Source: Chloranthus sessilifolius | Taxonomy: Eukaryota > Streptophyta > Magnoliopsida > Chloranthales > Chloranthaceae | Reading direction: 5' to 3' | Assembly (NCBI GenBank): GCA_021018995.1 | Contig: CM037598.1 | Span: 63,568,671-63,632,670, forward strand | DNA length: 64,000 bases | Part shown: piece by piece, positions 37,927-63,615 of the stretch | Numbering within the stretch: the stretch's first letter is position 1 | How the letters are laid out: each line of letters starts with the position of its first letter | Program-made: the position numbers and the translations under genes | The notes under the pieces: generated by a model | The model's database searches: none | The model's input: only the letters and a program-made list of their open reading frames with translations | What the model was told of the DNA's origin: nothing

Positions 37927-39439
37927 TAGTGTCCTTGAACAAATTGGGGTATTGTTCTTTGACATCAGCCTCCCGTTCTCACGTTGCTTCTTCGACCGGA
38001 TGGTTCTTCCATCGGACAAGCATTAAGGGAATAACCTTTGTCCGCAACACTTGTTCCTTTCGATCTAAAATTTCTACCGGCTCTTCAATCATGGTCATAT
38101 CTTCATGCATTTCGAACGATTGGCCGCTCAGTATGTGATCAGGGTCATTGAGATACTTCCTGAGCATAGACACGTGGAATACATTGTGTACCTGATCAAA
38201 CAGTGGTGGCAATCCAATGCGGTAGGCTACTTCTCCTAGTCGACCCAAAACTTCAAACGGTTCAAGATAGCGGGGACTTAGCTTCCCTCTCTTTCCAAAT
38301 CTCATCACCCCTTCATCGGTGATACTTTCACGAACACATGTTCACCCACCTTAAAGTCTACACTCGTCCACTTGATGTCAGCATAGATTTTCTGTCTGCT
38401 TTGAGCTGCCTTTAGTCTTCCCCTGATCATGCAGACAATAGCCGTGTTATCTTCAAGTAGCTTGGGTCCCAAAACAAATTTCTCGCCAATTTCCTCCCAA
38501 TTGATTGGAGATTTGCATCGTCTTCCGTACAAGGCTTCATACGGTGCCATTCCGATGCTCGTTTGAAAACTATTATTATATGCGAACTCAATCAATGGTA
38601 GGTGTTGATCCCATGATCCTTGTAATTCTAACATACATGCCCTAAGCATGTCTTCAATGACTTGATTGATCCTTTCAGCCTGTCCGTCGGTCTGTGGGTG
38701 AAACGCCGTACTAAAATCTAACCTAGTTCCCATTCCTTCTTGAAATTTCTTCCAAAACTTTGATGTATATAATGGGTCCCGGTCTGAAACAATGCTACTT
38801 GGAATCCCTTGTAAACGAACAATCTCTTTCATATAGAGCTCTGCTAGTCTTCCCGCCGTGTCCATCGTGTTGTAAGGCAAGAAGTGTGCTGACTTAGTCA
38901 ATCGATCGACTACTACCCAAATGGCGTTATGCTTCCTTGCAGTTCGCGGGAGACCAACTATGAAATCCATGGAGATAGATTCCCACTTCCATTTCGGTAT
39001 GGGTAGAGGCTGTAATAGGCCTGCGGGGTGTCTATGATCGATTTTCACTTGTTGGCACGTCAAACATCACGACACATACTCTGCCACATCTTGTTTCAAG
39101 CCTCTCCACCAGTAATTCTTTTTCAGATCTTGATACATATTTGTGCTTCCCGGGTGGATAGCATAGCTTGACTTGTGAGATTCATCAAGAATCGTTCGCC
39201 GCAAATCGGCAGTCTGGAATGCAAAGTCGCCCCTTGAATACTAAGGAACCATTCTCCTTGATCGAAAACTCAGATGTAATACCTTCAGTTACAACTTGAC
39301 GCATCTTTGTTAGAATTGGGTCTTTCATCTGTAGTTCTCGTATGTGTTCGAATATCACTGGTTTCACTGATATGTTGGCTAAGAAGGCTCCTGTGGCTTG
39401 TGGCTGTATGTCTCTGCCACATAGCGCTAGATCCTCCAA
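37927..39439 (-). pseudogene. RE3 integrase with chromodomain-like tail, broken
   Basis: Frames 39439-39185, 39063-38305 and 38308-37979 cover integrase. The core has SMDFIVGLPRTARKHNAIW, SDRDPLYTSKFW and [11 protein letters not shown] (the DDE residues). The tail has FHVSMLRKYLNDPDHILS and then ILDRKEQVLRTKVIPLMLV, the chromodomain-like segment that targets chromovirus integration. Breaks: stops/frameshift at about 39064-39184, a frameshift at 38305, and a TGA at 37979-37981 where relatives have Trp; beyond it the frame continues to a stop near 37927. Confidence 0.9.
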
Positions 39440-39448
39440 TAGCTTCCA

Positions 39449-41026
39449 TCAATGTATACCCGAAATTAGACTAGCCAACTGGGCCGAACTTTTCCGACTC
39501 AAGGCGTCGGCCACTACGTTAGCTTTACCTGGATGGTACTGTATGGAATAGTCGTAGTCTTTGAGAAATTCCATCCACCTATGCTGCCTCATATTTAGTT
39601 CCTTCTGTGTAAACAGAAATCTGAGGCTCTTATGGTCAGTGAAAATTTCAAATGTTTCTCCGTATAAATAATGTCGCCATATCTTTAATGCGAATATGAC
39701 TGCTGCTAGTTCTAGATCATGTGTTGGGTAGTTCTTTTCGTGCTCTTTCAACTGTCTTGAGCCGTAAGCTATTACCTTTTTATATTGATTTAGTACACAA
39801 CCCAACCCGTTATACGAAGCATCGCTATAGACTACGAATCCTCCACTGCCTGATGGAATGGCTAACACTGGAGCTGAGGTGAGCCTCTTCTTGAGTTCTT
39901 GAAAACTCTTCTCACACACCTCACTCCACTCAAATCTTGAGTCCTTTCTTGTAAGCCTTGTAAGAGGTCCTGATATTTTTGAAAACCCCTCGACGAAACG
40001 TCGATAATAACCGGTCAAAGCGAGGAAACGCCATCCTGATTTTGGTTGCTCCCAGTTCACTACTGCCTCGATCATAGCGGGATCTACTGTGACACCATGC
40101 TTTGAGACGACATGTCCCAAAAAGCTAACCTCTTCTAGCCAAAACTCACATTTGCTGAGCTTGGCGTACAATTGGTGTTCATGCAAGGTTTTTAGAGCGA
40201 CTCGTAAGTGTTCTTCATGTTCTGTCTTCGATTTTGAGTAAATCAGGATATCATCAACAAACACTACAACACAGGAGTCTAGGTGTGGTTTAAACACCCG
40301 ATTCATCAAGTCCATAAACGACGCCTTAAGGCGTCACACTAAAAATTCATAGTGTCCATACCGTGTTCTAAATGCCGTCTTCTGAATGTCCTCGGCCCTG
40401 ACTCTTAACTGATGGTATCCAGATCTTAGATCGATCTTGGAGAAATGTTTTGCTCCCTGCAACTGATCAAACAAGTCATCTATTCTTGGCAGCGGATATC
40501 GATTCTTCACAGTGACATTGTTCAATTGACGGTAGTCAATGCACAACCGCATCGACCCATCTTTCTTTTTCACGAATAGAACTGGTGCTCCCCATGGAGA
40601 CACGCTTGGTCTTATGAACCCTTTGTCCATGAGCTCTTGTAATTGTTCTTTCAACTCTTTCAACTCCGCAAGGGCCATCCTATAAGGCGCCTTTGAAACA
40701 GGTTCCGTTCCTGGTGCTAAGTCAATCGCAAATTCTACTTCTCTTTCTGGAGGTAGCCTTGGCAATTCTTCTGGAAATACATCTGGGAATTCTCGCACTA
40801 CCGCTATCTCGGAGATAATATTCTTTTCTTCTTTATTTTCTTTCAAGAATGCCAAATAACCACTACACCCCTTTCTGATTAAACGTTCTGCTCTGACTGT
40901 AGATATGAGTGGTACCTGTGTTGATCTCTCCCCTCGAAATCGAAACGATCTCCTCGTGTTAAGACAGAAAACAATAACTTTATCCTTGCAATCCACTGTT
41001 GCGCAGTGATGGGACAACCAATCCAT
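39449..41026 (-). pseudogene. RE3 reverse transcriptase and RNase H, with a motif deletion
   Basis: The 41026-40334 frame gives the protease end and RT fingers/palm ([57 protein letters not shown]). The 40315-39449 frame gives the catalytic [11 protein letters not shown], the connection, and RNase H ([31 protein letters not shown]). At 40316-40341 the codons for the conserved [10 protein letters not shown] motif are lost and replaced by an unrelated short sequence with a stop, so RT is inactive as read. Confidence 0.9.
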
Positions 41027-41034
41027 GCCAAGGA

Positions 41035-41337
41035 TCAGTCGAATCCTTGAATGTCCAACAATATTAAATTTGCGTCTAGTTTGTAGACAACGTGATCCTG
41101 AATGCTTACCACTACCGATTTGCAGACTAACTCTGTGTCCACTAATTCTCCTGTTGGGATAGACACTGATAACACGAAGTCTAGTGTCTCCGAAACAATC
41201 TTCATCTTCTTTGCAAATCTAGGGGTGATGAAGGAGTGGGTAGACCCTGGGTCTATCGGACTGTCGTCGCCATGTGCTACGTAGCACCCTTTTTCATAGA
41301 CTTGTAATGTACCTATAATGCATACATATACGTACAT
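41035..41337 (-). pseudogene. RE3 aspartic protease, broken
   Basis: Contains [18 protein letters not shown], the retropepsin motif in its Asp-Pro-Gly form. It joins the RT frame through stops around 41030. Gag-pol cleavage would be its job. Confidence 0.85.
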
Positions 41338-41465
41338 AACATATACTTTATTTAGAATTTTCTAACGCGCAACAACGGTTATAAATATGCTTGTCCTAAT
41401 GAACGCACATTCTCTATCTAGAATTGTATTGAAACCGAAATTCTTTATTGGAAAGAAATCTCACC

Positions 41466-42842
41466 TTAGATGATGTCGTGTACACTCCCTGCTTCTTGGG
41501 CGGTAACTGCGTAGGCTCTCCCTCGAACAACTGGCTTTCGTGATTGAATAGGTTGTGGCATGGAAGCTGGGGCCGTCTTTTCTTTAACTCTCTCAGGGCA
41601 ATCTCTTATCATGTGGCCTATCTTGCCGCATTTGAAACAGCCTCGCATTCCCTACCTACAATCCGCTGTTTTGGGGGACTTGCCACACTTGGCACAAGTT
41701 TCCCTTGGTGTTGAAGTAGCAGCTCTCGAAAAACCTTGGGTAGTCAGAGTCCATTGAAATAGCAGGGCCCCCATACCTCATCGGTCTCCCTGATGCCAGC
41801 AATGGAAAACTTTGATGAGTAGTTTGTTGTGCGGCTCTCCCATACCCTGTCTGGAACGGTTGTCTCTGATTCGGTGCTACAAACCTCGGTTTCTTATGTA
41901 TCGATTCATAACTCTCCGTCCTGCTTGGATCAATGCTTCCTCTTCCCTGTTGTTCACTCTGATGGTATCGGTTATTGTTTTCTTCTTCGACTACTAATGC
42001 CTTACTCATTACTTCTCCATAGGTCTTCAGCTGGAAGGGCGCAACCCCTCCTCGGATGTCCGACCTTAAACCCTGTTGGAACCTCTTCGCTTTCATCACA
42101 TCTGAAATTACATAGTCTGGGGCAAAACGAGCCAGTCTCATGAATTCTACTCCGTACTCTCTCACGGTCATCCTTCCTTGCGCTAGTTGTAAAAATTGGG
42201 TCTCCATCTGATTCCTCACAACTTCAGAAAAATATTGCTTATTGAATTCTTCTGCGAATTCGTCCCAAGTCCACGGCATATCTGGAGTTTCTTGTGCTCT
42301 TGTTCGCGAAACGGATTTCCACCAAGGTCCAGCTTCTCCATCTAGCATATATGCCGCCCAACGGACGCTCTCATCCTCCGTGCATGTCAGTACGCTAAAC
42401 ACCTTTTCCATTTCACCCAGCCAGTTTTAAGAGGTCTCATCCTTTTGAACTCGGTAAATGCTGAAGCCACTGGTGGTGTAGGTGCCACTGGAGGTGTAGG
42501 TGTTCGTTGTGGTTCTGGTGCTGCATGTGCTGCCAAGGACGCTGCTTGCTGTGCCATGGCAGCTGCCATTGTCTCCATTGTGTGCATCATCCTCTGACGC
42601 TCTTCTCATTCTTCATTTCTCTCCCTCACTCTATCTTGTTCCCTCTGATTTCGATCCTGTCGATCTAGATCTTGATCCTTTGCTTGATTTTGGTTTCCTC
42701 CCTGGCCACTGCCCTCGGGAATCCCCCTGTTTCCCAATGGTACCCTGTTTGTAGGTGAGACGAACCCATCACTACTGCGTAAATTCCTATCATGACCACC
42801 CCTGGGTCGACCTCTTCCTCTAGGAAACATAACGGTCTGCAT
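41466..42842 (-). pseudogene. RE3 gag, frameshifted
   Basis: The start at 42842 (MQTVMFPRGRGRPRGGHDRN) leads into a charged N-terminus, ending in a stop at 42606. The gag domain continues at 42590-42387 and 42411-41656 (WWKSVSRTRAQETPDMPW, FNKQYFSEVVRNQ, VREYGVEFMRLARFAP, KRFQQGLRSDI). The zinc knuckle (CFKCGKIGHMIRDC) is at 41648-41590. At least three frame breaks. Confidence 0.88.
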
Positions 42843-45984: not shown

Positions 45985-46195
45985 TGGCGTAACTAATAGT
46001 TATGCTAGGCAAATGTACAGTAAAATAGTGTTTAAACAGTGCCTGAAAGTTAGCTCGCGAGGGTGAGGTCCCCAATTAATACTGGCACAACTATTAGCTG
46101 TGCCAGGCTTAAATCATGGGAGAATTGACATGGCGCAACTAATAGCTGCGCCAGGCAAAGTTATAACTGGCGCAACTATTAGTTGCGCCACATCC
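45985..46195. repeat. TGGCGCAACTA palindromes in the RE4 LTR
   Basis: Five units of the type TGGCGCAACTA followed by TAGTTGCGCCA or close variants (TGGCACAACTATTAGCTGTGCCA-like, split here). Each unit is an inverted repeat of about 23 bases. This is the same design as the other LTR arrays but a different sequence. Confidence 0.85.
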
Positions 46196-46614: not shown

Positions 46615-48194
46615 TGAATGCCCCTCTTTGGTATCCGATCGCTAATGATCGAATTCCCAAGCAATAGAGACATCCGAAGAGGCCCAAGGCATTACTGACA
46701 GGTCCGCTGCATTCAGAACAAACTTCAAACATCAAATGAGTAACATGGTGAGAAAATGAAAGTCCTAGATGTCAAGCAAAACATTCATTTCTCGAGGTAA
46801 TCGGTTCCCGCGCTTAGTGACATTACTGGGCATAACAGAGGTGGAATGAGTTGCGAACTCCCTATAGTCGGGAAAGGCATTCGCTTCACCAGATAATTTT
46901 AAAGGTATTTGATGTTTAAAATTTATTCTGAATGCAACAGCTTCGTGAGTAAGAGGGGTGATCAACCCACATTCAAAGATAGGCGCGAAGTAAACATATG
47001 CAAGGCTCCATAGATTGTGTCCAATCCTACGAGGCATTTGATGGCCCCATCGGACTATTCGTGGGTGCCCCTGCTAAATGCAGGGTTCGAGGTCTTTGGG
47101 CTTTCCCAAAGTTTATTTAGCATGACTGCCCGAGCATAGTGAATAGTTGTCACAACAGTTTTTGGGGAGGATGTGCCATTTTCGAAAGCATGCCTTAGAT
47201 TAACATGACCTAGGGCATCAACTTCAACTACCTTGAATAAATCCAATCAAACATTGGGGTGTCTCCTTAAAGGGACATCCAATCCTGGTCTCTGCTGACA
47301 ATGATCATAGACATCAATTAACTATGCATAATCATGCACCCATTAGGGGCAATAAGCAATAACAAAGGCGATGGAAGCCCTGACCCAGACTCACCTGGGT
47401 ACAATTTACGGGGACAAACGACCATCATACGGATACCTAGATGCATGGCGTACACTTTACAGGGATATCGCTGCCCATACAGGTTTTAAGCTGGCAGAAA
47501 ATAAAAAGGGAAATGTCCCTTCTGAATGCATGGTTGCACATAGTTTGATTGATACATAATCTCATTCTCAACAGGTTGGTCTCAACCGACGATTGACCTT
47601 TTCCAACGGAGAATCTGAAGCTTAAGACACTTAAGTTCACTTAAATCCAAAATAGAGCGCTCATCTCAAAGATTTAGCAGTGGAGTCGACTCGATCGAAA
47701 CATTGACTGTTTGATCGGGACTGACACCGTTGCTCCTACCTTAGAGCAGGATCCAAAGATCTGAGGTGAACCCTAGACTCGGGACATTAATATGGCACAA
47801 CTATATTGCTGATAAAATATTGACATTTTACCACATTGAAAACATGCAAGTGTGCGTCTCTGTGGGGAATACAAATCTGTTTTTGATTTTTCTATCATTT
47901 TGTGCGATTTTTTTTGAATTTTTCAATTGTTATTTTATGTGATTTTTTTGGGGGGTTTAATATTTTATGTGATTTTTTTGGAATTTTGAAGCTATTATTT
48001 TATGTGGATTTTTCTTGTGAATACTTCCTGCTTCTTTGTGGGGATTTTTTGGATTTTCCCTTTATATTTTCCTATGTAGGATCGGGTTGCTCACTGATCT
48101 CGGTCCGCTTTTATTCTAGCACGACTCTCTTGGCAAGTCGAAGGATGATCGAAATATCGCCTTGAGAGCGCGTGCATTTGCCGGGGTGACAGAA
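46615..48194 (-). other. RE4 interior remnant, no recognised coding
   Basis: Starts with the polypurine tract and runs to the CACTA-like terminus. Minus-strand frames 47037-46765 and 47246-47055 have normal composition but I do not recognise them. 47880-48010 has three copies of a TATTTTATGTGATTTTTTTGG unit (split here), typical of T-rich untranslated parts of large gypsy elements. Confidence 0.4.
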
Positions 48195-48368
48195 CACTAC
48201 ATGAAAACCGAAAAAAAATAACGGCCCAAAACAATTGTAAATTTCCTAAACAACAGTTTTGAGCCGTGGTGACGACCGTTGTTTATAGAGCAGTGGTTTT
48301 GCTAAACAGCAGCCCAAAACTATTGTATATTTACCTCATAAACAACGACCCAAGTCAGCTGTTAAATT

Positions 48369-48678
48369 ACAACGGTTATGAGCTGTTGTTCCTTACCGAA
48401 AAGGGTTGTTATTTTTATGACTAAACAACGGTGTACGTCAGTGGTATATGTTCGTTGCAAACGGACAACGGTTGTGAGCCGTTGTTCCTTGTAGAAAAGA
48501 GTTGTTATTTTTCTGTCGAAACCATGACCTACGTTAGTGGAATATGTCCATTGCACAGGTACAACGGTTTGTAGCCATTGTTCTCTACAGTAAAGGGTTG
48601 TTATTTTTCTACCAAAACCACGGTCTAAGTCAGTGGTATATATCCGTTGCAAAAGTACAACAATTTTGAGCCGTTGTT
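48369..48678. repeat. Tandem repeat, exact 96-bp period
   Basis: Units start with ACAACGG/ACAACAA at 48369, 48465, 48561 and 48657. Within each, ACAACGG...CCGTTGTT forms a hairpin and GGGTTGTTATTTTT recurs. Because 96 is a multiple of three, a minus-strand frame stays open across it (32-residue periods). I regard that frame as a by-product. Confidence 0.88.
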
Positions 48679-49075
48679 AATTTACTATAAAAACAACGGT
48701 TATGGACCATTGTTTTTCTTAAAATTTTTTTTTTTTTTTAAAATGCATAGCTTCCATTTTTGTTTTTGTAATTGGAACTTGTTATAACTATTGTATCAAT
48801 CACATATCACCCTAGAAGGGAAAAAAATCGTACTTATTCAACTGAATAAAAAAATAATAAGTCAAAAACAAAATTAATTTAAAATCAGAAAATTGTGGCA
48901 CAAATATTGCTTGCAGTTGGTGCAATGGGAAATGTAAATGCACAAAAACATTTAGTAATTTACAGTTCCTTAGAAATTCAGACAGTTAAAGAATCAACAC
49001 TTTCCTAAATTATTTTACAGATCAAATGTAAACTAATTCTTTCTTAAGCTATTAAACTTGGTAAACAGCTTAGAA

Positions 49076-49234
49076 AACATGGAGTCGATTTGAGCAAGCA
49101 AACACTTCCATCTTCAATAGCAATATCGGCACCATGCATCGAGGAGTCAATAAACATGGTCCAACCAGATTCACTACTACTTCTTGCATTATATTATGAT
49201 CCTTCTTCGTAACAATATCTAATCCTCCCATGAT
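49076..49234 (-). pseudogene. SOB FIVE-LIKE (SOFL) gene fragment
   Basis: After an acceptor-like TTTAATATTACAG| (49247-49235) one minus-strand frame contains SSSESGWTMFIDSSMHGAD followed by an acidic stretch. This fits the conserved N-terminal SOFL motif (SS.ESGWTMYI). SOFL proteins are small plant proteins linked to cytokinin levels. An in-frame stop lies a few codons upstream and the second SOFL motif is absent, so it is a fragment. Confidence 0.6.
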
Positions 49235-49375
49235 CTGTAATATTAAACATATGAAAGACATCACAAAACATGAATCTTAAAACAAAGGCTAATCAAACTT
49301 TTACCTCAACTTATTAGTTCCTAGCAAAACAGTTATAGTCCTTATTACTTCAACAATGAAGAGAAAAAAAATTAC

Positions 49376-49461
49376 CTGGATTTGTAATCCTTAAGTAAAG
49401 GATGATCCAAAGCAAGTTGCTTGTTGATATCCAAGCAATCAATGATATCTCCATTCTCTGT
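49376..49461 (-). pseudogene. Neprosin-family exon fragment
   Basis: An 86-base exon-like piece with acceptor TTGTTACAG| and donor CCAG|GTAATT. It encodes ENGDIIDCLDINKQLALDHP, close to the neprosin activation-peptide signature (DGDIIDCV.I..QPAFDHPLLK). Only this exon is seen; the catalytic domain is absent. Confidence 0.72.
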
Positions 49462-49763
49462 CTGTAACAAATCGCATACAACACTTATTAAAGCATGTAT
49501 TATGGAAGCATTAAGAGCAATAACTGTTGGAGAAACAATGTATTATGGAAGCCTGAACCCCCAGAATACCCTTCTCATCCATCAATAAATTACAACATCC
49601 CAAAACCCAAAATCTTATGAAAGATAACAACTCAGCAAGAGTGGAATTTGTATCAAAAGAATCACACTTTATTTCCTAAAGAAAGATAAAATATGGAATA
49701 GAGTTCCTATATTTGTGATAGCTTTGATCATTTTAAGCACAGTCCACCATAATTGAACTCTAC

Positions 49764-49818
49764 CTCATCTGGTGTCCAATGCCCCTTTGTTGAACGGCGT
49801 GTAGGGCCACATGTCCTC
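49764..49818 (-). pseudogene. MYB3R exon fragment
   Basis: A 55-base exon-like piece with acceptor TTTTTGTAG| and donor GATGAG|GTAGAG. It encodes RTCGPTRRSTKGHWTPDE, matching the start of the first MYB repeat of plant three-repeat MYB3R cell-cycle factors (GPTRRSTKG.WT.EED). The following repeat exons are not present nearby. Confidence 0.75.
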
Positions 49819-50161
49819 CTACAAAAACATGGGGATTAATGGGTATTAATGTACTACTTCAACCAATACATACACTTTATATGGTCAATAGCACCTAATT
49901 CAATTACCCCATGTGAAGATGAGGGCGAGGTAGTGACAGCAAAAACTGATGTAACGGGCGAAAATAACATTTTTAACATATATCAAAAGACATGATTTAC
50001 AATATTTCATGGTATTTGAATGATATGTGCATATGTGTCTGTGTGTGTGTGTATTTCTCATGAGATATAAAAGAGAGAGAGAGAACTTCACCCACAGAAA
50101 CCATAAATTTTGAAGTTCAAAAAAGAAGAGAATAAGAGGCTATGACGACAAGAAACAAGTG

Positions 50162-50163
<2 letters not shown>

Positions 50164-50215
<52 letters not shown>
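50164..50215. repeat. (AT)n microsatellite
   Basis: About 26 AT units between the MYB3R-like and following exon fragments. Confidence 0.9.
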
Positions 50216-50218
<3 letters not shown>

Positions 50219-50285
50219 GTACTATAAGGATAAAAAAATTGAAAGATTATAATAATGAGGGAAAATGACTTGCCTGGAATTGAAT

Positions 50286-50979
50286 TCAGAATGGAGCCTC
50301 AAGTGATTCATCCCAAAATTCTGCACTTCCATTGGAGGCATCCTCACCATCTTCCTCCATAGAAAGCCTAATGTATACTCTATGTGCAAAGCAGTCCCAC
50401 TCTGTCAGAGTTGGATCTTCACGTTCCTACTCATTTCAAGCATAGATAAGGTAGCTAAGAACTAGAAGTATACCACCACTCCTTCAACCTTCTATAGTTA
50501 TTATCAGTCAGGGACTTAAGGACATAAGCATGCAAGATGTGGATGCTGCACTTACCTGACGAATGAGAAATGGATCATGATTTTTGTAGGCTACAAACTT
50601 AATCAGATTGAAAAGGATATTGAAAACATTTCCTGAAAGTTTGCAAATCTTTCCTAGATAATAAATTGTACAAGCAGTTTGATTCCAACCAATACTTGAC
50701 CATAGATGCTAAATTGTAAGGTTCAAAAATTAAGAGATGCAAAAATACCAATTTTCTGGTATGGACATGCCAAAACCATTTTCTGGTCTCTCTCTCAAGA
50801 AATCAAACCAATCATGTTTTGGACGAAAGCACAAGTCAATTAACTATTTGACCAGGGCTTTGTGCAAATCAAACTTTGCCCCCTTACCAAAAATGTGGTC
50901 ATTCATATATTCAAACAGGTCTTCCATGCCATCACAAAGAACAAGAAAACTAAAAACTGATTCCACCAACAAACAATAA
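50286..50979 (-). pseudogene. 3' exons of an unrecognised host gene
   Basis: Three exon-like pieces. About 50955-50749 (with an in-frame TAG) encodes MEDLFEYMNDHIFGKGAK...LIDLCFRPKHDWFDFL. 50632-50556 has acceptor TTTCAG| and donor CGTCAG|GTAAG and encodes [19 protein letters not shown]. 50426-50286 has acceptor GAGTAG| and encodes [20 protein letters not shown]...[10 protein letters not shown], then TGA. The last two join in phase. Composition and splice sites say this was a real gene's C-terminus; I do not recognise the family. Confidence 0.5.
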
Positions 50980-51479
50980 ATCATCTTAAGAAGCAAAAAA
51001 CAAAGAAGAATTCAACAACAGGATCTATGAGTTTGATCACAAAACCATCCACATAAGGAACTATGAACCCAAATCCAAATACCCAAAAACAGAAATAAAT
51101 CAACATGACAACAAAGACCAAAGAAACTATACCTATATTTTCAGAAACCATAAATCAAGCTGTCTGGAATAGCTGAAAACCATATCCCTTGTTCTCCATA
51201 TTCAGTGGGCTTTGTGCAAATCAAACACAACTAGAGCATCGTAAGCTCTAGCTGCTTCTTCTAGCTGCAAATCAAACACAACTGGAGATTTAATAACGAG
51301 GAGATAAAAGTGACGATAAGCAAAACCCCAAAGCCCAAATCAATAATAAATCAATCATTCACAAACCCTAACCTGGAATGCCACTCCCAAACTGCTAAAA
51401 CAAATGCTAACAAGGAAACAACTCCCACCCACACCCTGCTGCCAACTGAGTCTAGAAGCATACACCAACACAATTCCTT

Positions 51480-51527
51480 CGAAGAGCTCTATATATATAT
51501 ATCTATATCTATATATATATATATATT
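51480..51527. repeat. AT-rich microsatellite
   Basis: Interrupted TATATATC/ATATAT run. Confidence 0.8.
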
Positions 51528-51677
51528 AGGTGCTCGCAGCTTCTGCAACTTAATACAAAAGAACTACTGTACACAACCAACCAGCAACCCTCAACCACAG
51601 TTTCTAGATTGTTTGTCAGCTGCCCCAATTCTCATACCTGAAAACAAAATTGAAAGCCCGCAATTAAAAGAACTTAC

Positions 51678-51970
51678 CCTCCAAACGGCTGGCTATCATT
51701 TCCACATTTCTGGCCAAGTCCATCCAAGTCTCAACGCCAACTCAGTAGCGGCCACTTGGGCCAAACCTTTACATTATTGATGTCAAACTCAACCTGCGAC
51801 ATCCAAGGCAAAAAAGGCAAACAGAATAGTATAAAGATAACACAGTATGTACATTTTGGATGAAATTTAAAGGTTAGAAACACATGCCTTATCACCCTTT
51901 TCTGCACAAGTTCAGAATTAACACCACTAAGGGCTTTTAGGACAATCCCAAGAGCAACATTTGGCTTCAT
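51678..51970 (-). pseudogene. Exon-like fragments, family not recognised
   Basis: About 51965-51895 encodes NVALGIVLKALSGVNSELVQ. About 51790-51678 encodes GLAQVAATELALRLG and, one frame over, WMDLARNVEMIASRLEG, ending at a donor GGAGG|GTAAGT. Helical, gene-like composition. A frameshift splits the second piece. It may belong to the same gene as 50286-50979 or to another. Confidence 0.4.
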
Positions 51971-52199
51971 AAATCAAAAACCAAGAGACAAGGAAAATTA
52001 AAATAAGAAAATGTGTGGGTCACTACTAAGGTTTGGCCAAGTAGAAGAAGTGCAAACATAACAGAGAATAGAAAACCCCAACTCTTCAGTCAAGACACTG
52101 ACGGGCACACATGAAATCTTGAAATCAATTTATCAATATCAATAAAATTTAAAAGAAAAGGGAAATAGCAGCAAAAAGGGCATTAGGTGCAAGACCTCT

Positions 52200-52640
52200 A
52201 ACTCTTCAATGAAGCCATTTTGAAATATTGCATTGTTGTTTAAGCTCCCATTCTCCAAGAGTGCCTCAGAATTTGGGTCACATGCTTGTTCACCCTGCAC
52301 AGACACGCGGCTGGCACTCTCTTCGAGGCTCTGTATTATAACCTCATTGCATCTTGTTATTGATTCCCATTTAGCCTCCCTTACTGGAACTGACCTGATA
52401 CGAAGCATCCAAGGATCTTGCATCACCTTCTAAAACTGCCTCCACATATATCATATCAACTACCTGCTTCTCTTGCTCGACTGCCATTTGTTCATCATCC
52501 CTAGAGACCTTCCACTTGAGCGGTCTCTTAGCAGATCCACCATCATAATCATCAATGTTGTCTACTGCCAAATCCACCACTTTAACCTCCTCCAGTTTTT
52601 GAGTGGCATTCCAGTTTGGGAGTGGCATTCCTTGTATCAC
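52200..52640 (-). pseudogene. Charged coding fragment, family not recognised
   Basis: About 440 bases of coding-like sequence with one frameshift near 52395. The first part encodes KRPLKWKVSRDDEQMAVEQE and the second KWESITRCNEVIIQSLEES...NGFIEELE. A short duplication of AATGCCACTC..AAACTGG (52600-52640) marks the upstream edge of the gene-like block. Confidence 0.4.
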
Positions 52641-52650
52641 CCAAACCACT

Positions 52651-55600
52651 CAATATTAGAGTGCCTTTTTTTATTTTATTATAAAAAATTTATTAAATAT
52701 TAAAAAGACTTCTATAAAGGGCATCTTTGTATTTTATTTGATTCATATAGGATGTGTTTCAGCCAATATTGCCCGATATGGGCTGGTATTTGACTTGATA
52801 TTAGACCCGATATTAAATCACAGGTGTATATTGTATCGGATGGGGCCTAACCCACCCGATACAGATATGGTGATATGCCCAGCAGTAGTATCAGACCAGC
52901 GCGCATCAGATGGCCATCAACGCGCATTAGATTTTTTTAATGATGTTTTTGTTATCCTACTATCATGACCATCAGCGCGCATCAGATGGCCTTGATTTAC
53001 ATCTCTAAGTACTTACCCATATCAACAACATGCAATACAAGCAAAGCCAGATTCCATGAAATCGCATAGAAAACTTCATTAGAAAATTAATAAAATTCAA
53101 CTCAAAATAGACTCATAACATTATATAACAGCTGCACACAGGGTTGGGTTTGGGACACCTATGCCTGACGTGTTTATTTTAACAGCTCGAAATTTTCATT
53201 CCAAATTGACCCAAGTCACCAAACAGCTTGAAATATCTAAACTTGGACCAGACCCGTAGCCGGATGGATCTAGAAAACACATTAGGATGACCTCAACCCA
53301 TTTGCTGCCCTAATCGATTCACTGTAGAAGCAGAGAAAATGATGAGAATGGGACCCATTTGCAATCCTATTCTCAACAAAGCAATATAGTATAGCAATAG
53401 AGCTGGCCACGCTGCAGAGTGCACATCCAGTAGAAACAAACAAAATTAATAACAAATTCTTTATCAGAATAGTTTTTTATATGTAAAATGTAAGAAACGT
53501 CTGGCATATATATATATTCTTTCAAGCATAAAAATGTAATACAAGAAGCAAGTATAGACCTCTAAGGCCTTGAAAGGAGAACGTGAGCTTCAAGGTCTCT
53601 GCCTTCTGTTCTTGTCATAAAGAACACAAACATCTGTAGTTGTCTTCATCGGAAACCAATCAAAGCAGATACTTCATTACTACAACTCTATTGGGAAAAA
53701 CTGACTGAAGTGCATGGAATATGGTGATGAATTATCCCACTCTTTAGCTATCAAAAAATAAGAGAAATGAATTATACAAGGATTAGTGGAATATGAGCAT
53801 CACATTTGTAGGACATGTGGCAAAGATGAGCTGCTAGGTGGACTGCTCGAATTTATCAATGATGTGCGCATAAGTGGGAGGTCATGGCCCTATCATGTTC
53901 AGGTTAGTGTCTCATTAAAAGAAAAATGAATAAACATACAAAGCAATAGTGGTTCATCACTATGAGGCTACGTCCGAAGGTGCAGAGGGATTGATAGATT
54001 AGTAGATTATACAAATGTTGTTTCATTTGGAAGAAGACTGCTCATAAAAGAAAGGCTGAAATTACATAAGCTCTCTATATTTAGTCATTTGATCGTTCAA
54101 ATCGGGCGAAGATCCTTATAATTATTAAAATTGAAGAACGAGATGTTTATATATAGTTGACCAAATTTTCGGAAAGATAAATAGAGCAAAAATCTGAGTG
54201 ACACTAACTTTAGGAGCCTTGAAATATGAGGAAATCAGCTTTTGGCTATACCGTGGCTACAAAGTGCATCATGGCGTGAACTTTTAAGCCACAAAATATT
54301 GCAAAAAATATGAATTTAGTAGATTTGCAGGGACCCTAATATCTGTGAAAGACAGGTTTTGACAAAATTGATTGGGTGAAAGGCTTTTTCATGACACCAT
54401 CAATCATATTGCTTGCTTTCACTGTCAATAGCAACTAACCAATTCCAATTTTTTTTTGTTCAAAGAAGAAAGTAAAACAAAAACAAATAAGAAACAGAAC
54501 CGATACCGAGTCGACTCGGGTGTGATTTGCATGAATTCGATACGACTCAACTGAGTCGACTTCCAAAGGCATACCAGCCTCACGTAGTCGTACGCATACT
54601 TGTGGACTTGGCCCTAGCCCAGTGGAGGAGTTGAATCTCGAGCTTCGGCTTGGAGATCGGCCAAAGGTGAAGTAAAATTGAAGAACCCATGTGCTTGAAT
54701 GAACATTTTACTCATCTTTTTATTCATTTTTTTCCTTCTTTGCTTTTACATTATGGCTTAGGCCTCTCTCCTTGAGAAGATTTCTTAGTTTGTCATGGCC
54801 TTTTTGATTTCATGTCATCACTGTTAACATAGTGGCCCTCACATAATAGAATGGAAAGAACATCTTTCATGAACATAGGATGTTGCACTTTGATCAAAAT
54901 TCCAGTTAATTACCTTTCTAATAATATATAATTTTCTTACTGTTTACGCTTATGAAAATAAAATATGATATTTCTACCTTGACCAAGATTATATATAATC
55001 TCTGTGACTTAGATCTGAAAAAGAGGATACTTCTCTAATCAATCCATTGCTATTCTCAAAGAGAAAAGCAATACCGTATGCAATTACACCAACAAAAATA
55101 GGTAAATATAAATTTAATTTGAGAATTTTCTTAGTTAAAATTGATCACATTACATTAACATAGAATTCTCACATCTCTAGTTTCAGTGAAGCAAGAGGGT
55201 GGGAGACTGACTTATTAAAGAGCATGGGTGTAAATATCAAAGCCATTGTAGTATAGTACAAGTTTCAATTATCTTATTGGGAGATGATATAGATGCCATT
55301 AATACCTAATAATTATCTCTTTTGCAAACTCTAGAGAACTTCTTGTGTCTCCTTCCTTTGTCTTATTAGAGAGAGAGAGAGAGAGAATCTTAGATTAGTT
55401 ATATTATGTGGGATTTAAGAGGGTGAAAAACTGACTGAAGTCCATGGAATATGGTGATGAATTATCCCACTCTTTAGCTACCTCATTGACATTCTAGCAG
55501 TGGAAAATATGCTAAACTAAAGTAAAGTAAAGATAAAATAATGACTTAATATTTCTAGCAGCTCTAAGATAAAATACATGGACTACTTTTCCAATTTCAC

Positions 55601-57085
55601 AAACTTTGCTACAAATAATCCACTAGTTTGGGACGTTGAAGGATCAAACCGGAGAGTCTTTGGAATCTTCCCACTCCTAATAGGCCAATTTTTGGCAGCA
55701 TCTACCTCTTGTAGCTCTGCAAGATCAAGAAAGATAACTATATGACTGTCCATAACTAAGCAGGTTATAGGACTTATGGAATTATATGATTAGTGCATGC
55801 TTGTGGGCCATGGTACGTTCGAGAGATGGTTCTTCCTTTTAAAAGCTTCGATCACCCAGGAAAATGCAGAGATAGAAGATCAATTTTATACACTAAACAA
55901 GCTAGAATGGGCTACTGGTATGAAACATTTCTAGAGGTTTTTTATATACATTCTATTTTTTAATGGACCTAATCTCTTTTAATGTTAAAACATATTTCAT
56001 TTATAAAAGAAAATTGTTACTAAGAATTAAAATTTTTTGTTATCATTTGTAGAAAAGGATGTTTTCGTATGCCTACTACAAACCCAGTGCACAAGGATAT
56101 ACAGTCATGGTCCAATCAGTCAAAAGCCTAAAATCCTCACCTCAAGTGTGCATTCAAAAATGGCTTCGAATATGCGAGGCACATCCTATGTCATAACACT
56201 CTTATACCTATATACACCAAATTCAAAAAATCAAATCAAATAAAAAAATCATGCACCGTAAAAGTTGGTAGTTCAAAGTTTTGAAATCTACACGGGAAGC
56301 CAATTGTACAGGTACACTCAGCTGTATAGAAAAAACAAATATCAATTTCATACTTTAATATTTGGAGTTCAAAGTTAAAAAACTAATATAAATTACCTTG
56401 CTAAACTTAGCTAGTGTCTCCATCAAAAATTCCATCAGCAACCACACATACGACATCAACAACGGTTATCTAATGGATCAAAAACATCAACACAGTCGAG
56501 TGCACAATAACATGCTACAAAACAAACCAACGTAAATCTCTAACACCCACATCAATCTACACAGTAGCACCAAGCAGCAAGATCAGCTATTATGAATGTA
56601 AGCAATACCCAAAGGATTGACAGCTTTCAGAACCAAAGACATTTATGAGGCCTCACCTTCATCCGACCACAAAATATATGACACCCGATTCAAATAAGAC
56701 CCTTTAAAAGCAAACAATTCCTCAAGCATACTCTTCCATAAATGTCAATATATGTGCATGCTTAGCCCTAACTTTCACAATCAGGTTAACTAATGCAACT
56801 ATCAACATTATAAACTCTTCTATTGAAAAGGACAAACATACAATTAGTCTATAATTCTACAGATAAACTAGAACCACCAAAATGTGGAACCATATACCTC
56901 TAAGAACCATACAAATAGTCCATAATTCTATAGATGCATTTGAATAAAAGAACACATAAAAAAAGAACCATATACTTCTAAGAACAATCAACTAAAATGA
57001 ACAAGACTTTTGGGCCACGTAATTATATCACCCGATGTAATATATCCCAAGTTTCCATTACAAGCATACAATTCTGTAGTGATAT
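52651..57085. other. Intergenic DNA, little recognisable
   Basis: No coding families seen. 52745-52990 has degenerate CCGATAT/ATATCGG-like pieces and two copies of CAGCGCGCATCAGATGGCC. 54500-54565 has GAGTCGACTCGG palindromes. 55371-55386 is a short GA run. A near-identical block of about 58 bases occurs at 53697 and 55427. Confidence 0.5.
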
Positions 57086-59450
57086 TGTGACGACCTGACT
57101 TTTCCAATCCCTCAGGTATAGGAAAGGCCAGTTCACCAACCTATCGAATAAACGATAAGCCGAACAAACAGGGCACATATCAGAGTAAAGCGCAATAAAT
57201 ATCCATAGCTAAAATAAATGTGAAAGCAATAAAAAGTAAAGAACCACCGATGATGGCCGACCATCATCGAAACATGGCTCAAAATAGAAATCAAAATCAA
57301 GTATAAAACTATGATATCCAACTAAAATGGGCCCACAAATTCAAGTCTAACTCTCACCACAAGTAAGAAAATCAGTAAGTTCTGTACTGGGAAAAACTCC
57401 TCCGGAGGAACCTCAAGCCTCTGACTCACGAAAATTAATACGATTACCTAGACACTGATATAGTCGGAGTGAGCTACCCAACAAAGCTCAGTAGAAGAAA
57501 GACATCTACGGCATTTTACTTTAACTAACATGGTTTCAAAATAAATACCGGAATATAGCTTGTCAAACATATAAGCAGATAATAAACAGAATTTAGGTGC
57601 GGAAATCATATGTAAGATTTATTTCTAAATGTGTGAAAACAGTTTCAAGAACAGATGCAGTGTTTCAGTGTCTTAGTTTCTCTAACTTCTATATGCAAAG
57701 TTCAGTAATTCATGACTTAATCCTCAACTTAAATACCTCCCGAGTAAACTATATCTCGAGAGCAGGAATATAGCCGATGGGAACCCCTACCTACCATTGT
57801 CATTCATGAACCCTTTTTCAGGATGCAACAAGCCCCTGCGTAATGAGGGAAACTTGTGCCAGGATGTTGTTCAAAAATTTTTGAGGGGTCATTCAGGTCA
57901 ATCATAAAACAAATGCAGATACTAATATAAATGAGATGCAAGTCTCTTATACATAGTTCAGGTTCTTGATTTTAGATTTTCAGAGCTTAAGCAGATTCAG
58001 GTTTTAGGATTCAGGTAGATTTAGATTTTCAGTCATTCATATCAATTTCAGTTTACAGATGTGATTTCAATGGCATGTGCAAGTTCAAAGATTTTAATTC
58101 AAAATATCCATGCGAATTAAAATAAAATACTGTAAAGATGAGATTCTCCTACCAAAACTCGGAGTTACGCGAAGTCAAGCAAAGTTCTATTGATGGCCTC
58201 TCACCCTCAATCTTCATCATAATATATGTTCATGCATTAAGATTAACTCTAATCACTAATAATATAGACCTATTAAAGTGTTTCCTCAAAAACAAGTCAA
58301 AACAGGCAAGTTGCGCCAATCCTAGAATTTGACGTAACATTCTCATATATTTTTAACCATCAAGACGATTGGTTCATGAGTTAGTTAAAATATGAAAGTT
58401 GTAGATTTTTCTGTTAGCTTTCCAAGGCAGAAAGAGTCGTCTCAATCGGAGTTCGGGATAAAATGTTATGACTAAAATACTAAGATAGTATCGGAGTTCA
58501 GCGATACCTCGCTCGAGCGATGATAATAGCTCGCTCGAGCGAGATCCTTTAGAAATTTCTCGCTCGAGCGATGACTTAAGCTCGCTCAAGCGAGGGCAGG
58601 GAACACCTTTTCGAGTATAAGATTTTTAAAGTCAAACTTTTGGTGTATCCTCGCTCGAGCAATGATAATAGCTTGCTCGAGCGAGCTATAGCGACGCGAT
58701 TTTGCTCGTTTTCACCCGAATCGAAACCCATACATCCCAAAGTAAAACCCATGGCTAATCTAATGATTTTAATCAATAAATTTAATTAAAAAATACCTTT
58801 AGTCTAAGGATTCTTTGATTAGAAACAAGTCACGCGAACGGAGCTTCGGAACGAAACCGGCGGGTTTCTTCGACGATTCGCGCCGCGATCGATCCAACGA
58901 GTTCACAGAGAACTCCAACATGTCCCCAATGATCTCAACCTCTCCCAAACGCCAACTATAAATTCATGGTTGATTTAAGTTCTTTCTAAGGTTCAAGGGT
59001 TTTCAATAAAGAGGGTTATAGAGGAGGAGGTTTTCTAAACCGATCTCCTACGATGATTGAAGAAGAGAGAAGACAAAGTTTCGCACGATTGGATAACTAT
59101 CAAACGGCTATAGTTCTTCATGGCACTCATGTCTCTTCCTCTCTTAACAAAACCTAGTATAATACGAGAATGCAATTCCTTCTTATAATAGGATTGCTCA
59201 CAAAGTTAAGCACACACACACCTCTTGTGTGTTATATACACTTGTAATTTTAAAACTCAAGCCCGGTGTTGAGCGGCCACCCCGAGAACGGTGCACAACT
59301 TTCACACGAGGGTCCAAATGGGCTCTAAATCAAAATATGTTCGCACAATCACATCTAGATAAAGATTCAAAACAAATGGTGACGTCGGTCGCCGAGTCGA
59401 ATACACACATGGGGTCAGTCTAACTCGGGTTCAAAATACGGGTCTTTACA
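57086..59450 (-). repeat. RE5 3' LTR
   Basis: 2365 bases, TGTGACGACCTGAC to GGGTCTTTACA. It shares its right part with the solo LTR at 9213-11635 and its start with RE1. A TATA-like TATATAA lies at 59232-59238 (minus), about 215 bases from the LTR 5' end. Confidence 0.9.
58508..58686. repeat. Palindrome array TCGCTCGAGCGA in the RE5 LTR
   Basis: Six units (CTCGCTCGAGCGATG, GCTCGCTCGAGCGAG, GCTTGCTCGAGCGAG and similar), 765-940 bases from the LTR 5' end. The core matches the RE3 arrays although the LTRs otherwise resemble RE1. Confidence 0.92.
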
Positions 59451-59486
59451 TTCTACCCTCCTTGGGAATTTTTGTCCTCGAAAATG
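59451..59486 (-). promoter_or_regulatory. RE5 polypurine tract and stem-loop
   Basis: Minus strand CCAAGGAGGGTAGAA adjoins the LTR, followed by the ATTTTTG...CGAAAAT counterpart of the RE1/RE3 stem, here with one mismatch in the sense RNA. Confidence 0.8.
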
Positions 59487-59615
59487 TATGGATATCTAAA
59501 CCGAACTGCGGTAAGTCCTTATCCTAACACCAGTATAAAGCAAAATTGAAACAGTCTAAAGTCTAAAAGAATGTTGGTCGCGATGCGGTAGACTTCACTA
59601 ATCACGCTTTCAAGG

Positions 59616-59725
59616 ATCGGGATCCGTAGTAACCTGGATGTACTGCGTGTGGCATCCCATACTGCCATAGAGGATTGCATCTGAACATGGATGCATACCT
59701 TCCCAAGTGTCACGTGCCTGGAAAC
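59616..59725 (-). other. Conserved noncoding block shared with RE1
   Basis: Counterpart of 12474-12585, 165 bases inside the LTR. Keeps GCATC...GATGC hairpin arms. Confidence 0.6.
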
Positions 59726-60095
59726 ATACTTCACCATGACACAAACCTAGCACACACCTACCTCACCCTTTTGGTAATTATTTGAGCAAAAATTTCAGAT
59801 GTCAGAATCGAATACTTATTCAGAAGCATGATCACATGGCTCGTAACATGTTCTAACTGATGACATGGATTCCAACTGATACACGGTTCTAACTGAGAAT
59901 GAATAAATATGACATTTAAGATTTTATTATGTGATCGTTATAGATATATATGTAAAGCATCGATGTTATTAACCAATTTAACATTGAAAATTTTGAAGAA
60001 ATTCTCTTTTTTTTTTTTTTTAAAAAAAAGAAGCAAATTCAAGAATTTAAAGGTACGTAGGGTTTTCTTACATAACTATAGTTTACAATATACCT

Positions 60096-61625
60096 TCACT
60101 CGAAAAGTTGTGGAAATTGCTCACGAATCTCCGCTTCATGCTCCCATGTGGCTTCCTCTCAAGAATGGTTCCGCCACTTCACGAGTACTAAGGGAATGCT
60201 CTTTGTCCGTAAGATCTGTTCTTTACGATCCAAGATTTGTATCGGTTCCTCAACCAAGGATAGGTCTTCTTGGAGCTCAATGGGCTGGTAGTCCAATACA
60301 TGAGTCGGATCCTTCACGTACTTTCGCAACATGGACACATGAAACACATTGTGCATACCCGATAGCTGCGGTAGCAAGTCTACTCGATAGGCAACCTCCC
60401 CGACTCAGCCTAATACCTCAAAAGGTCCAACATAGCATGGACTCAGCTTCCCACGCTTCCCAAAATGCATCACGCCTTTTGTAGGAGAGATTTTGACAAA
60501 TACGTTGTCTCCCACCTTAAAGTCAACATGGCTCCTTTTAAGATCAGCGTAGCTCTTCTGACGACTTTGAGCAATGCGTAGTCTCTCACGGATTAACCGA
60601 ATTGTCTCGGTTGTATTCTCCACGATCTCGGGACCTAAAATGAGTTTCTCACCTACTTCTTCCCAATTAAGCGGAGACCTGCACCGCCGTCCATACAAAG
60701 CTTTGTAGGGTGCCATGCCGATGCTAGCCTGGTAACTGTTATTATAGGCAAACTCGATCAGCGGTAAATGTTGGTCCCATAACCCCTGAAAATTTAGCAT
60801 GCAAGCACGTAACATATCTTCTATAATCTGATTCACCCTCTCAGTCTGCCCATCGGTCTGAGGATGGAATGTCGTACTGTAATCGAGCCTGGTGCCCATT
60901 CCTTCTTGAAATCGTTGCCAAAATTGAGATGTGTACATCGGGTCTCTATCGGATACAATTCTGACCGGTATACCATGCAGCCTAACCATCTCCTTGATGC
61001 ATAATTCTGCCAGCTTGTTGGCGGTATATGATGTATTATAAGGCAGGAAGTGCACGGACTTAGTCAATCGATCCACAATGACCCTGATGGCAATGTGCTT
61101 TCTCAATGTTCTTGGCAATCCCAAAATAAAGCCCATAGAAATGGCCTCCCATTTCCACTCAGGTATCGGTAGTGGTTGCAACAGTCCTGCCAGATTTCAG
61201 TGATCCACCTTTACTTGCTGACACACAAGACATCTCGAGACATACACAGTGACATCTTTCTTTAAACCTCTCCACCAGAAGCTTTTCTTTAAGTCTTGGT
61301 ACATCTTGGTACTGCCAGGGTGAATAGTGTACATAGACTTATGAGCCTCTTCCAAAATGGTGTCCCGAAGCTCAGTACTAGTTGGTACGCATACCCGGTC
61401 TCTAAACAATAAAGTGCCGTCATTTTTGATAGAAAAATCTATTTTGCTTCCCCCAATCACATCCCGTCTGATAGCCATAAGTTCATCATCCGTCATCTGA
61501 AGTCTGTGAATGTTCTCATAGAGAGTGGAACGGATCACCAGCGTAGCCATTAATACACCTGAACCTTTTACGTCAAATCTCATGTTACTTAGAGCCATAT
61601 CTTCCAATAGATTCCATCGTCGCAC
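60096..61625 (-). pseudogene. RE5 integrase, broken
   Basis: 61625-61197 holds the HHCC zinc region ([19 protein letters not shown]). 61181-60405 holds the DDE core (SMGFILGLP with Gly for the catalytic Asp, [23 protein letters not shown]) and VDFKVGDNVFVKISP, uninterrupted where RE1 has an insert. 60377-60159 holds the tail with ILDRKEQILRTKSIPLVLV. A TGA (60157-60159) replaces a likely Trp codon; the frame then continues to TGA at 60096-60098. Loss of the first catalytic Asp would inactivate it even without the stops. Confidence 0.88.
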
Positions 61626-61681
61626 CCTTGTGGTGAGATGTGATAACTGAGCAGAGAACTTCTAACTTAACGCATCTGCCA

Positions 61682-62209
61682 CTACATTTCTTCCCAGGGG
61701 TGGTACTGGATGGTACAATCATAATCTTTCAAGAACTCCATCCATCGACACTGTCTCATATTCAACTCCTTCTGTGAGAAGAGATACTTGAGGCTCTTAT
61801 GATCGGTGAATATATCGAAGGTCTCCCCATAAAGGTAATGCCTCCAGATCTTCAGAGCAAAATTCACTGCTGCCAACTCAAGATCATGTGTCGGGTAATT
61901 CTTCTCATGGTCTTTTAGCTGTCTAGACCCATAAGCAATGACTCTCTCATTCTGGTTAAGCACACAGCCTAAACCCCCATATGATACGTCACTGTATAAT
62001 ACAAAGCCTCCCCTGCCTGATAGTATAGCAAGTACTGGCACAGTAGTCAATCGTTTCTTGAGTTCCTGAAAACTTTGCTCACACTGCTCTGTCCAATCAA
62101 ATTTAGTATTCTTCTTCATAAGTTGTGTAAGAGGACCTAATATGTTGGAGAAGCCCTCCACAAACCTTCTGTAGTATCCTGCCAAACCGAGGAAACTAAG
62201 AACCTCCAT
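61682..62209 (-). pseudogene. RE5 RNase H and RT connection
   Basis: 175 residues with [34 protein letters not shown] (the usual Asp-Ala-Ser reads Asp-Val-Ser), [19 protein letters not shown] and [19 protein letters not shown] frameshift at the HPGK motif (61682) separates it from integrase. Confidence 0.88.
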
Positions 62210-62347
62210 AACGGTCTTTGGTTATTCCTAATTCATCACTGACTCAATCTTTGCTGGGTCAACTGTAATACCGGTCTCAGAGATAGCATGGCCTATGAAA
62301 CTGACCTGCTCAAGCCAAAACTCACACTTACTAAGTTTTGCATATAA

Positions 62348-63073
62348 CTAATGGTCTCTGAGGGTTTGTAGAGCCACTCGCAGATGCTGCTCATGTTCTT
62401 CTCGCGTCTTTGAATAGATGAGGATGTCATCTACAAAAGCTACTACAGACTTGTCCAAATGTGATTTGAATATTCGGTTCATCAAGTCCATAAATGATGC
62501 GGGTGCATTTGTCAATCCAAATGGCATGACCAAGAACTCGTAGTGCCCATATCGGGTTTTGAACGCTATCTCCTGAATGTCTTCAGACGTAACTTTCAAC
62601 TGATGGTAGCCTGACCTCAAGTCAATCTTCGAGAAGAACTTTGCTCCTTATAATTGATCAAACAGATCATCAATTCTTGGAAGTGGATAACGATTCTTAA
62701 TTGTCAACTTATTTAGCTGGCGGTAATCAATGCAAAGCCGCATTAAACCGTCTTTCTTCTTTATAAATAGAATCGGTGCTCCCCAGGGTGACACACTCGG
62801 TCTGATAAAGCACTTATGTAGCAGTTCCTAAAGCTGCTCCTTCAACTCTTTCAATTCTGTAGGTGCCATTCGATACAGAGATTTTGATACTGGTTCCGTA
62901 CCCGACGCTAACTCAATCGCAAACTCAATCTCCCTGTTAGGTGGTAATCCAGGTAGATCTTTAGGAAAAACATCTAGATACTCACAAGCAATCGTAATAT
63001 CTGCGATATTTTTCTTCTCCTCCTTATGATCTTGTAAGTATGCAAGATAACCACAACACCCGTTCCTCATCAT
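62348..63073 (-). pseudogene. RE5 reverse transcriptase, broken
   Basis: 63073-62828 covers the linker (FPKDLPGLPPNREIEFAIEL). 62620-62348 covers the palm with [30 protein letters not shown] and [12 protein letters not shown] (catalytic VDD intact). Stops at about 62646, 62828 and 62348 break it. The stretch 62646-62827 still reads as RT fingers. Confidence 0.88.
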
Positions 63074-63082
63074 ACGGTCTTC

Positions 63083-63480
63083 TCAAATGGCAGAGATAAA
63101 TGGTGTCACACAAGATTTGACTCCGCAAAATCGAAAAGATTTTCTCTTCGGTAGGCGGAATGTCACAATCTTTCGAAGACAATCCACACTCGCATGGTAA
63201 GTAGATAACCAATCCATCCCTAGTATCATGTAGAACCCTTCCATGCTTAAAATGATCAAATCAGCTACTGTCTCGTGGTCTTCGATCATCACAATCACTG
63301 ATTGACACATGGTATTGGTGCTCACTGAGTTACCAGTAGGAATTGACACTACCAAGATGAAATCAAGGGCCTTGGGAATGATGCCCAACTTCTCAGCGAA
63401 CAACGGAGTGATAAAAAATATGTAGACCCGGGGTCTATCAACACTCGCGCTTCGATTTTGCTTACATCACTCCCCCGATG
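63083..63480 (-). pseudogene. RE5 aspartic protease, broken
   Basis: 63403-63083 encodes the protease body ([33 protein letters not shown]). The active-site Asp-Pro-Gly codons lie at about 63424-63440, just upstream and separated by a frame break. Confidence 0.82.
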
Positions 63481-63615
63481 CATAAAAAGGGTACCTTAGT
63501 TTAGACAAGCGTTTCAATTAAAATTTTCTAAGCATGTGTGTTCATCCATAACTTATTAACAAAATTTATTATATACCAAGCAATTATATATAAACAAATA
63601 GAATAAGAAGACATC

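Follow-up and report, generated by a model that had tools for sequence, protein, structure and literature searches.

Background

Among described CACTA (En/Spm) transposons, the soybean element Tgm-Express1 of the wp allele carries fragments of five unrelated host genes (PMC1947982), elements of Chenopodium have captured Neprosin (pfam14365, pfam03080) and AP2 fragments (PMC8978399), and multi-gene captures are known for the Pack-CACTAs of maize (PMC8903248). This report concerns a 64,000-nucleotide window of the Chloranthus sessilifolius genome (C15:63568671-63632670 of the 2.17-Gb assembly), in which a block starting at position 48195 is very probably the left arm of a CACTA (En/Spm-type) transposon that, judged by sequence comparison, acquired DNA from at least five host genes and was then multiplied. 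The five are SOB-FIVE-LIKE (SOFL), neprosin, MYB3R, PP2A regulatory subunit B'' and poly(A) polymerase (PAP) genes, and two more loci probably contributed DNA besides them.

Like Tgm-Express1, the element captured several genes and was amplified, a process that is already known. In both, a CACTA element carries pieces of five unrelated host genes and has retained exons, introns and usable splice sites; Tgm-Express1 lies within a gene and its chimeric transcripts have been demonstrated (PMC1947982), whereas here there are several composite copies and a related copy with transposase. The Chenopodium elements likewise combine transposase domains with neprosin and AP2 fragments (the latter tentative here) outside the coding region, but their fragments lie 5′ of the transposase, whereas those described here are found 3′ of it, close to the left end, and are accompanied by three further gene families (PMC8978399). 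Pack-CACTA and Pack-TYPE elements of Arabidopsis, rice and maize share the presence of multi-locus coding DNA between CACTA ends, but they are non-autonomous, whereas here the copy on C12 has a tnp2-type transposase, the window copy being incomplete (PMC8903248, PMC13317346). A full-text literature search for neprosin together with CACTA found the Chenopodium paper (PMC8978399) alone, and a search for at least three of the words CACTA, PP2A, MYB3R, SOFL and polymerase gave no such element by title among the matches listed.

The CACTA terminus and related copies in the genome

The left terminus, CACTACATGAAAACC on the plus strand at 48195-48209, is flanked by GAA (48192-48194) and forms a sharp boundary, with flanks that vary by insertion site. 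The perfect sequence occurs nowhere else in the window; with up to three mismatches there are five matches in the window against 2.46 expected, and such looser matches are therefore uninformative. Behind the terminus lie subterminal repeats of the kind found in the CACTA superfamily (ACAACGGTT..GAGCCGTTGTT; 48250-48714, no strand assigned), consisting of six copies of a 22-nt unit at 96-bp tandem spacing.

A search of the assembly with the block, in which the best 40 of 1191 first-look candidates were scored, returned 61 matches, so that the other copies for which a first-pass annotation of this DNA had suggested looking do exist. The SOFL-neprosin core was present in 19 of the 20 places fetched from these matches, the exception being a PAP gene on C9 (L026). 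The composite with PAP was found again on C4 and, next to an unrelated left flank, on C5; C2 and C10 have part of it, and shorter versions are distributed over many chromosomes.

Left ends could be read by pattern in 16 of the 19 copies (L013, L021 and L023 fell outside the pattern, and the last two were read separately), and 15 of them begin with CACTAC and one, L028, with TACTAC. The flanks of 14 of these 16 left ends are unlike that of the window copy, with 1-5 of 20 bases in common and a sharp break at the terminus. The remaining two, L009 and L010 (C15, 63.49 and 63.73 Mb), share 18 of 20 flank bases with the window; because of these shared flanks they appear to be segmental duplicates of the window copy and not separate insertions. 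The element together with its flanks occurs three times on C15, at 63.49, 63.62 and 63.73 Mb, about 110-130 kb apart and with 95-96% identity, which indicates a segmental duplication of the region.

Both ends, imperfectly matched to each other, were seen in L021, L023 and L016; terminal inverted repeats as in CACTA elements are thus represented by the left end in the window and by both ends in these three copies. L021 is 7764 bp long with the target-site duplication (TSD) TAA on both sides, and L023 is 6979 bp long with TAT on both sides, so that the 3-bp TSD of the superfamily is present in two of the three copies with both ends. A search of the other copies for TAGTG followed by the 3 bp of their left flank gave internal chance matches only. 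L021 and L023 are also the only copies in which host DNA, namely the SOFL-neprosin core, lies between two proven ends.

A tnp2-type transposase, again as in CACTA elements, was found in the C12 copy, where several open frames on the minus strand match Transpos_assoc (E = 2.9e-18), tnp2 (PF02992; 5.6e-42) and DUF4218 (5.8e-18). In the window, homology to the other copies extends to 57085. The CACTA core at 55749-57085 (no strand assigned) is common to copies on several chromosomes and in the C12 copy runs on to the minus-strand transposase. At 57086 a Ty3/Gypsy-like long terminal repeat (LTR) element on the minus strand breaks into the window copy and occupies 57086-64000, continuing beyond the window end; other copies carry on past 57086, and the frames of the LTR element match RT_RNaseH (9.8e-33) and a Tf2-1-like SH3 domain (2.4e-7), with an integrase match below the cut-off. 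The element has the host coding DNA, from five gene families, that marks a Pack-CACTA. As to non-autonomy, the C12 copy holds a transposase and the right part of the window copy lies beyond the Gypsy-like insertion. The Pack-type capture suggested by the first-pass annotation is well supported by the multiple copies, the sharp left ends, the TSDs and the source-like loci described below, but with tnp2 in the C12 copy, and with no partner terminus found downstream near the window copy, the element would hardly be a clean Pack-TYPE.

Gene fragments in the left arm

The first-pass annotation had described exon fragments of several unrelated host genes behind a CACTA-like terminus. Five genes could be placed there, and all eight of their exon-like pieces lie on the minus strand. 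A SOFL exon fragment (SOFL domain I) at 49070-49182, with an AG acceptor at its 5′ side, was recognised by motif comparison: the window reads SSSESGWTMFID, as against SSCESGWTMYIE in AtSOFL2, which we translated from the T21I primer with the mutated codon restored to T (PMC2785485). Six divergent copies were fetched for comparison: L033-L036 all have EECSSSESGWT(M/I)Y(I/N)ES, and L037 and L038 deviate within the motif. A Pfam search of the SOFL piece gave no match.

The neprosin activation-peptide exon at 49376-49461 retains both its AG acceptor and its GT donor. It matches Pfam PF14365 (Neprosin_AP) at E = 5.3e-10, over the curated cut-off, and a query taken from copy L024 matched neprosin chains in PDB at 1.3e-5, in agreement with the earlier assignment.

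The third fragment (49655-49841) comes from a MYB gene, presumably of the MYB3R class to which it was assigned earlier. Its AG/GT-flanked exon at 49764-49818 is the start of a MYB repeat and reads RTCGPTRRSTKGHWTPDE; the same exon is present at loci L046 and L047, followed farther on by DKLLCR(V/A)VQQYKGKIWKKI. When the two parts were joined, Myb_DNA-binding was matched at 1.8e-6, and at 5.2e-8 for a join between window and L047. By itself the short exon had no match in Pfam, and a 30-amino-acid MYB reading had none in PDB. The MYB3R class is presumed from the motif GPTRRSTKG; a literature search for TRRSTKG returned nothing. The MYB3R exon also occurs at many further sites (L044-L047 and other matches) in open frames longer than those of the CACTA copies, and the four loci fetched, L044-L047, have intron sequence in common. 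These loci and their kin could represent pseudogenes or a separate repeat family.

The further multi-exon gene whose last two exons had been noted to join in phase is PP2A B''. Its fragment (49960-50752) comprises these two exons (50556-50651, and 50286-50426 with the stop codon), the intron and downstream DNA; the first of the two is shortened at its 5′ side. The peptide joined from a gene on C4 (L040) matches PP2A B'' chains in PDB at 2.1e-25, and the window's own exons encode the same protein with changes. The PP2A piece, SOFL and the short MYB exon were all missed by Pfam alone.

The fifth gene, PAP, goes beyond the first-pass annotation, as does the extension of the element to 57085. C-terminal PAP exons (51767-51793, 51896-51964 and 52196-52593) and their introns occupy 51361-52593, with a 1-bp frameshift near 52378. 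An initial reading of the exon at 52.1-52.6 kb as MYB3R was rejected: this exon belongs to poly(A) polymerase, and the MYB3R piece is at 49.7-49.8 kb. The related C9 locus matches PAP_NTPase, PAP_central (6.7e-52) and PAP_RNA-bind, as well as poly(A) polymerases in PDB.

Between and beyond these fragments lie further pieces. The block at 50761-51261 (minus strand) is partly common to loci on C7, C10, C14 and C1 and ends in a tentative AP2/ERF remnant, EEAARAYDA, at 51235-51261. It recurs in another CACTA element, L041, adjoining tnp2 and a sequence that matches AP2 weakly (E = 0.0018, under the cut-off); the window stretch itself has no such match. At L041 (C7:65.026 Mb) the order is a tnp2 frame, an AP2-like remnant (WLGTFNTTEEATRAYDA) and then the same block as in the window, and CACTA families therefore share pieces. 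Up to 51202 the block also recurs in L042, about 145 bp past an open reading frame that presumably resembles the C-terminal part of an ERF, Pfam giving no AP2 there. Two pieces of a locus at C1:43.32 Mb (L043) lie at 51285-51363 (91% identity) and 52633-52880 (92%), on either side of PAP. The filler at the PAP junction (52594-52632) has a longer form in the window, L009 and L010 than in L011 and L013, and 52881-55748 is a mosaic of pieces that genome comparison found again elsewhere; no strand was assigned to any of these four stretches. The AP2/ERF remnant and the C1 locus are tentatively considered additional captured sources. A 56-bp direct repeat (53695-53750 and 55425-55480; 98% identical, 1730 bp apart) was also observed.

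Source-like loci, junctions and order of capture

Loci resembling the parent genes were reached for PAP and PP2A, introns included, and for neither SOFL nor neprosin, so that the parent-gene search proposed earlier succeeded in part. The window PAP segment (51361-52593) is 94.9-95% identical to the C9 gene (L026:4268-5497), across introns too. The C4 PP2A gene is 87.1% identical to the window over 49960-50645 and 96.2% identical to copy L011 over 1356 bp, introns included. A stretch 1.4 kb past L040 on C4 is 98% identical to window 50641-50752 and is taken as part of the same PP2A gene; relative to L011, about 1.2 kb is missing in the window at 50641-50645. Since the source-like loci match together with their introns, DNA and not mRNA was copied.

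Copies differ in the pieces they hold. L014 diverges at 49958, right before the PP2A piece, and is without PP2A, and L012 is without PAP and retains C1-locus sequence on both sides. The whole PAP piece is found in the window copy as well as in L009, L010, L011 and L013, and L020 and L027 have part of it; PAP therefore moved after its capture. The junctions are sharp, and of five examined, two have 3-bp microhomology (TGA and ACA). At the right edge of PAP, its left edge is repeated in inverted orientation over about 20 bp in both L011 and L013; a fourth junction has a 22-bp direct repeat, and nothing clear was found at the fifth, the right edge of PP2A. The microhomology and the inverted templated filler suggest template-switching repair, and the filler favours it for at least one capture step.

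Under this model, segments including introns would have been copied from SOFL, neprosin, MYB3R, PP2A B'' and PAP genes into the element, stepwise, during repair of breaks or gaps inside it at which other templates were used. The SOFL-neprosin core would have been gained early and PAP late, within the C1-derived piece, and the composite would then have moved and multiplied together with its captured pieces.

Selection and reading frames

The ratio of nonsynonymous to synonymous substitution rates (dN/dS; codons with stops or gaps skipped, here and for pN/pS) is near 1 among the PAP copies: over the 15 pairs formed by five copies and the C9 gene it ranged from 0.50 to 2.53, and was 1.16 for the window against the C9 gene. 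The ratio of the proportions of such differences (pN/pS) was 0.69 for SOFL (26 sequences, 6 of them divergent and the other 20 from the window family, with the window included) and 0.72 for neprosin; control frames taken from the SOFL stretch gave 0.73 and 0.33. Copies diverge from one another to about the same degree in exon and non-exon bins, low-complexity bins aside. SOFL had been considered as a selected transposon exon, being free of stops in 125 of the 150 matches listed; this was rejected in view of the even divergence and a pN/pS not under the controls.

In the window copy, the exons of MYB3R, neprosin and SOFL can be joined without a shift of frame, giving an open frame of 84 amino acids. 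Of the 19 copies, 11 hold the MYB3R part and could be compared, and none has this join: ten contain stops, and L016 is open but with the neprosin frame shifted. Six of the 11 lack at least one of five splice dinucleotides checked, and the PAP frameshift is common to the window, L009 and L010. Neither a conserved frame nor purifying selection, as expected of a functional chimeric gene, was found. Because no selection was seen and the in-frame join is absent in the other 11 copies, the captured pieces look like passengers, with no gene function indicated. Read-through from the transposase promoter could nevertheless lead to the pieces being spliced into varied transcripts, as documented for Tgm-Express1 (PMC1947982).

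Alternative explanations

Several observations weigh against the interpretation of the block as an amplified CACTA capture. The right terminus and TSD of the window copy were not found, and the copy is interrupted at 57086. Exact TTTTCAYGTAGTGGAA occurs 66 times genome-wide (its reversed sequence, as a control, 0 times), and on C15 at 24.5, 63.46 and 69.6 Mb; no site is both close to and downstream of the window copy, the nearest downstream being about 6 Mb off, and the partner terminus followed by GAA that the first-pass annotation proposed was thus not seen downstream near the window copy. The duplication around L016, one of the three copies with both ends, is imperfect (CAA versus CGA). No SOFL source gene was reached among the best 150 of 185 candidates, a match list occupied by transposon copies, and no neprosin source gene was reached, no genome search having been aimed at neprosin. 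At sites that the five complete PAP copies have in common, the C9 PAP locus differs from every one of them, so that the actual source may have been a paralogue of it. The absence of PAP in L012 and of PP2A in L014 could reflect losses, and three-base microhomology can be explained by chance. Finally, pN/pS is below 1 for SOFL and neprosin, yet the control frames allow no decision for or against weak constraint.

With the right end of the window copy unproven, one might suppose that degenerate genes or pseudogenes were clustered by chance and that a CACTA end was inserted alongside. This is extremely improbable, as the PAP composite is repeated on C4, on C5 (where its left flank is unrelated) and partly on C2 and C10, shorter versions are widespread, source-like PAP and PP2A loci lie on C9 and C4, and the independent insertions speak against it. 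The first-pass annotation had also offered a chimeric gene in assembly, in which the exons of the element would be transcribed and spliced into a new protein kept by selection. The window copy does retain most splice sites and the 84-amino-acid MYB3R-neprosin-SOFL join, and its pieces lie on the strand that in the C12 copy encodes the transposase. The stops or shifted frame in all 11 other copies, the splice dinucleotides missing in six of them, the PAP dN/dS near 1 and the frameshift shared by three copies make it very unlikely.

How an amplified CACTA capture gained its genes is a separate matter. Two adjacent elements may excise as one hybrid together with the intervening DNA, a route described for Pack-CACTA and proposed in Arabidopsis (PMC13317346, PMC8903248). 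Such tandem insertion could account for one or more early captures; as the route in place of template-switching repair we consider it unlikely. PAP is flanked by two pieces of one C1 locus; one of its junctions has microhomology and the other inverted templated filler, which a hybrid of two elements is not expected to leave. By inference from these sequences, the junction features fit template-switching repair better than the joining of two whole elements.

Other transposons in the window

The window is dense in nested transposons. Directly left of the element, at 45985-46190, four copies of TGGCGCAACTA..TAGTTGCGCCA resemble subterminal repeats of a different transposon. A 202-amino-acid open frame on the minus strand at 32596-33201 has hAT transposase domains (Dimer_Tnp_hAT, 1.5e-25). 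Open frames of three retroelements lie on the minus strand at 15008-17160, 38308-42426 and 60408-62221, with RVT_1, RT_RNaseH and integrase matches in those tested; we take their order to be Ty3/Gypsy.

Significance

It is conceivable, if improbable, that neprosin activation-peptide and AP2 exons have been captured repeatedly by CACTA elements of distant flowering plants and kept as helpful, in which case the left arm would be a module prone to capture and enlarged by template-switching repair. If so, shielding from silencing or the supply of splice or poly(A) signals would be possible benefits.

Copies without PP2A, copies without PAP and copies with all pieces occur together with source-like genes in one assembly, which allows capture steps and junctions to be read singly, and the series bears on how CACTA elements gain genes. 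For Chloranthus sessilifolius itself, annotation of the genome may count transposon-borne SOFL, neprosin, MYB3R, PP2A and PAP pieces as genes.

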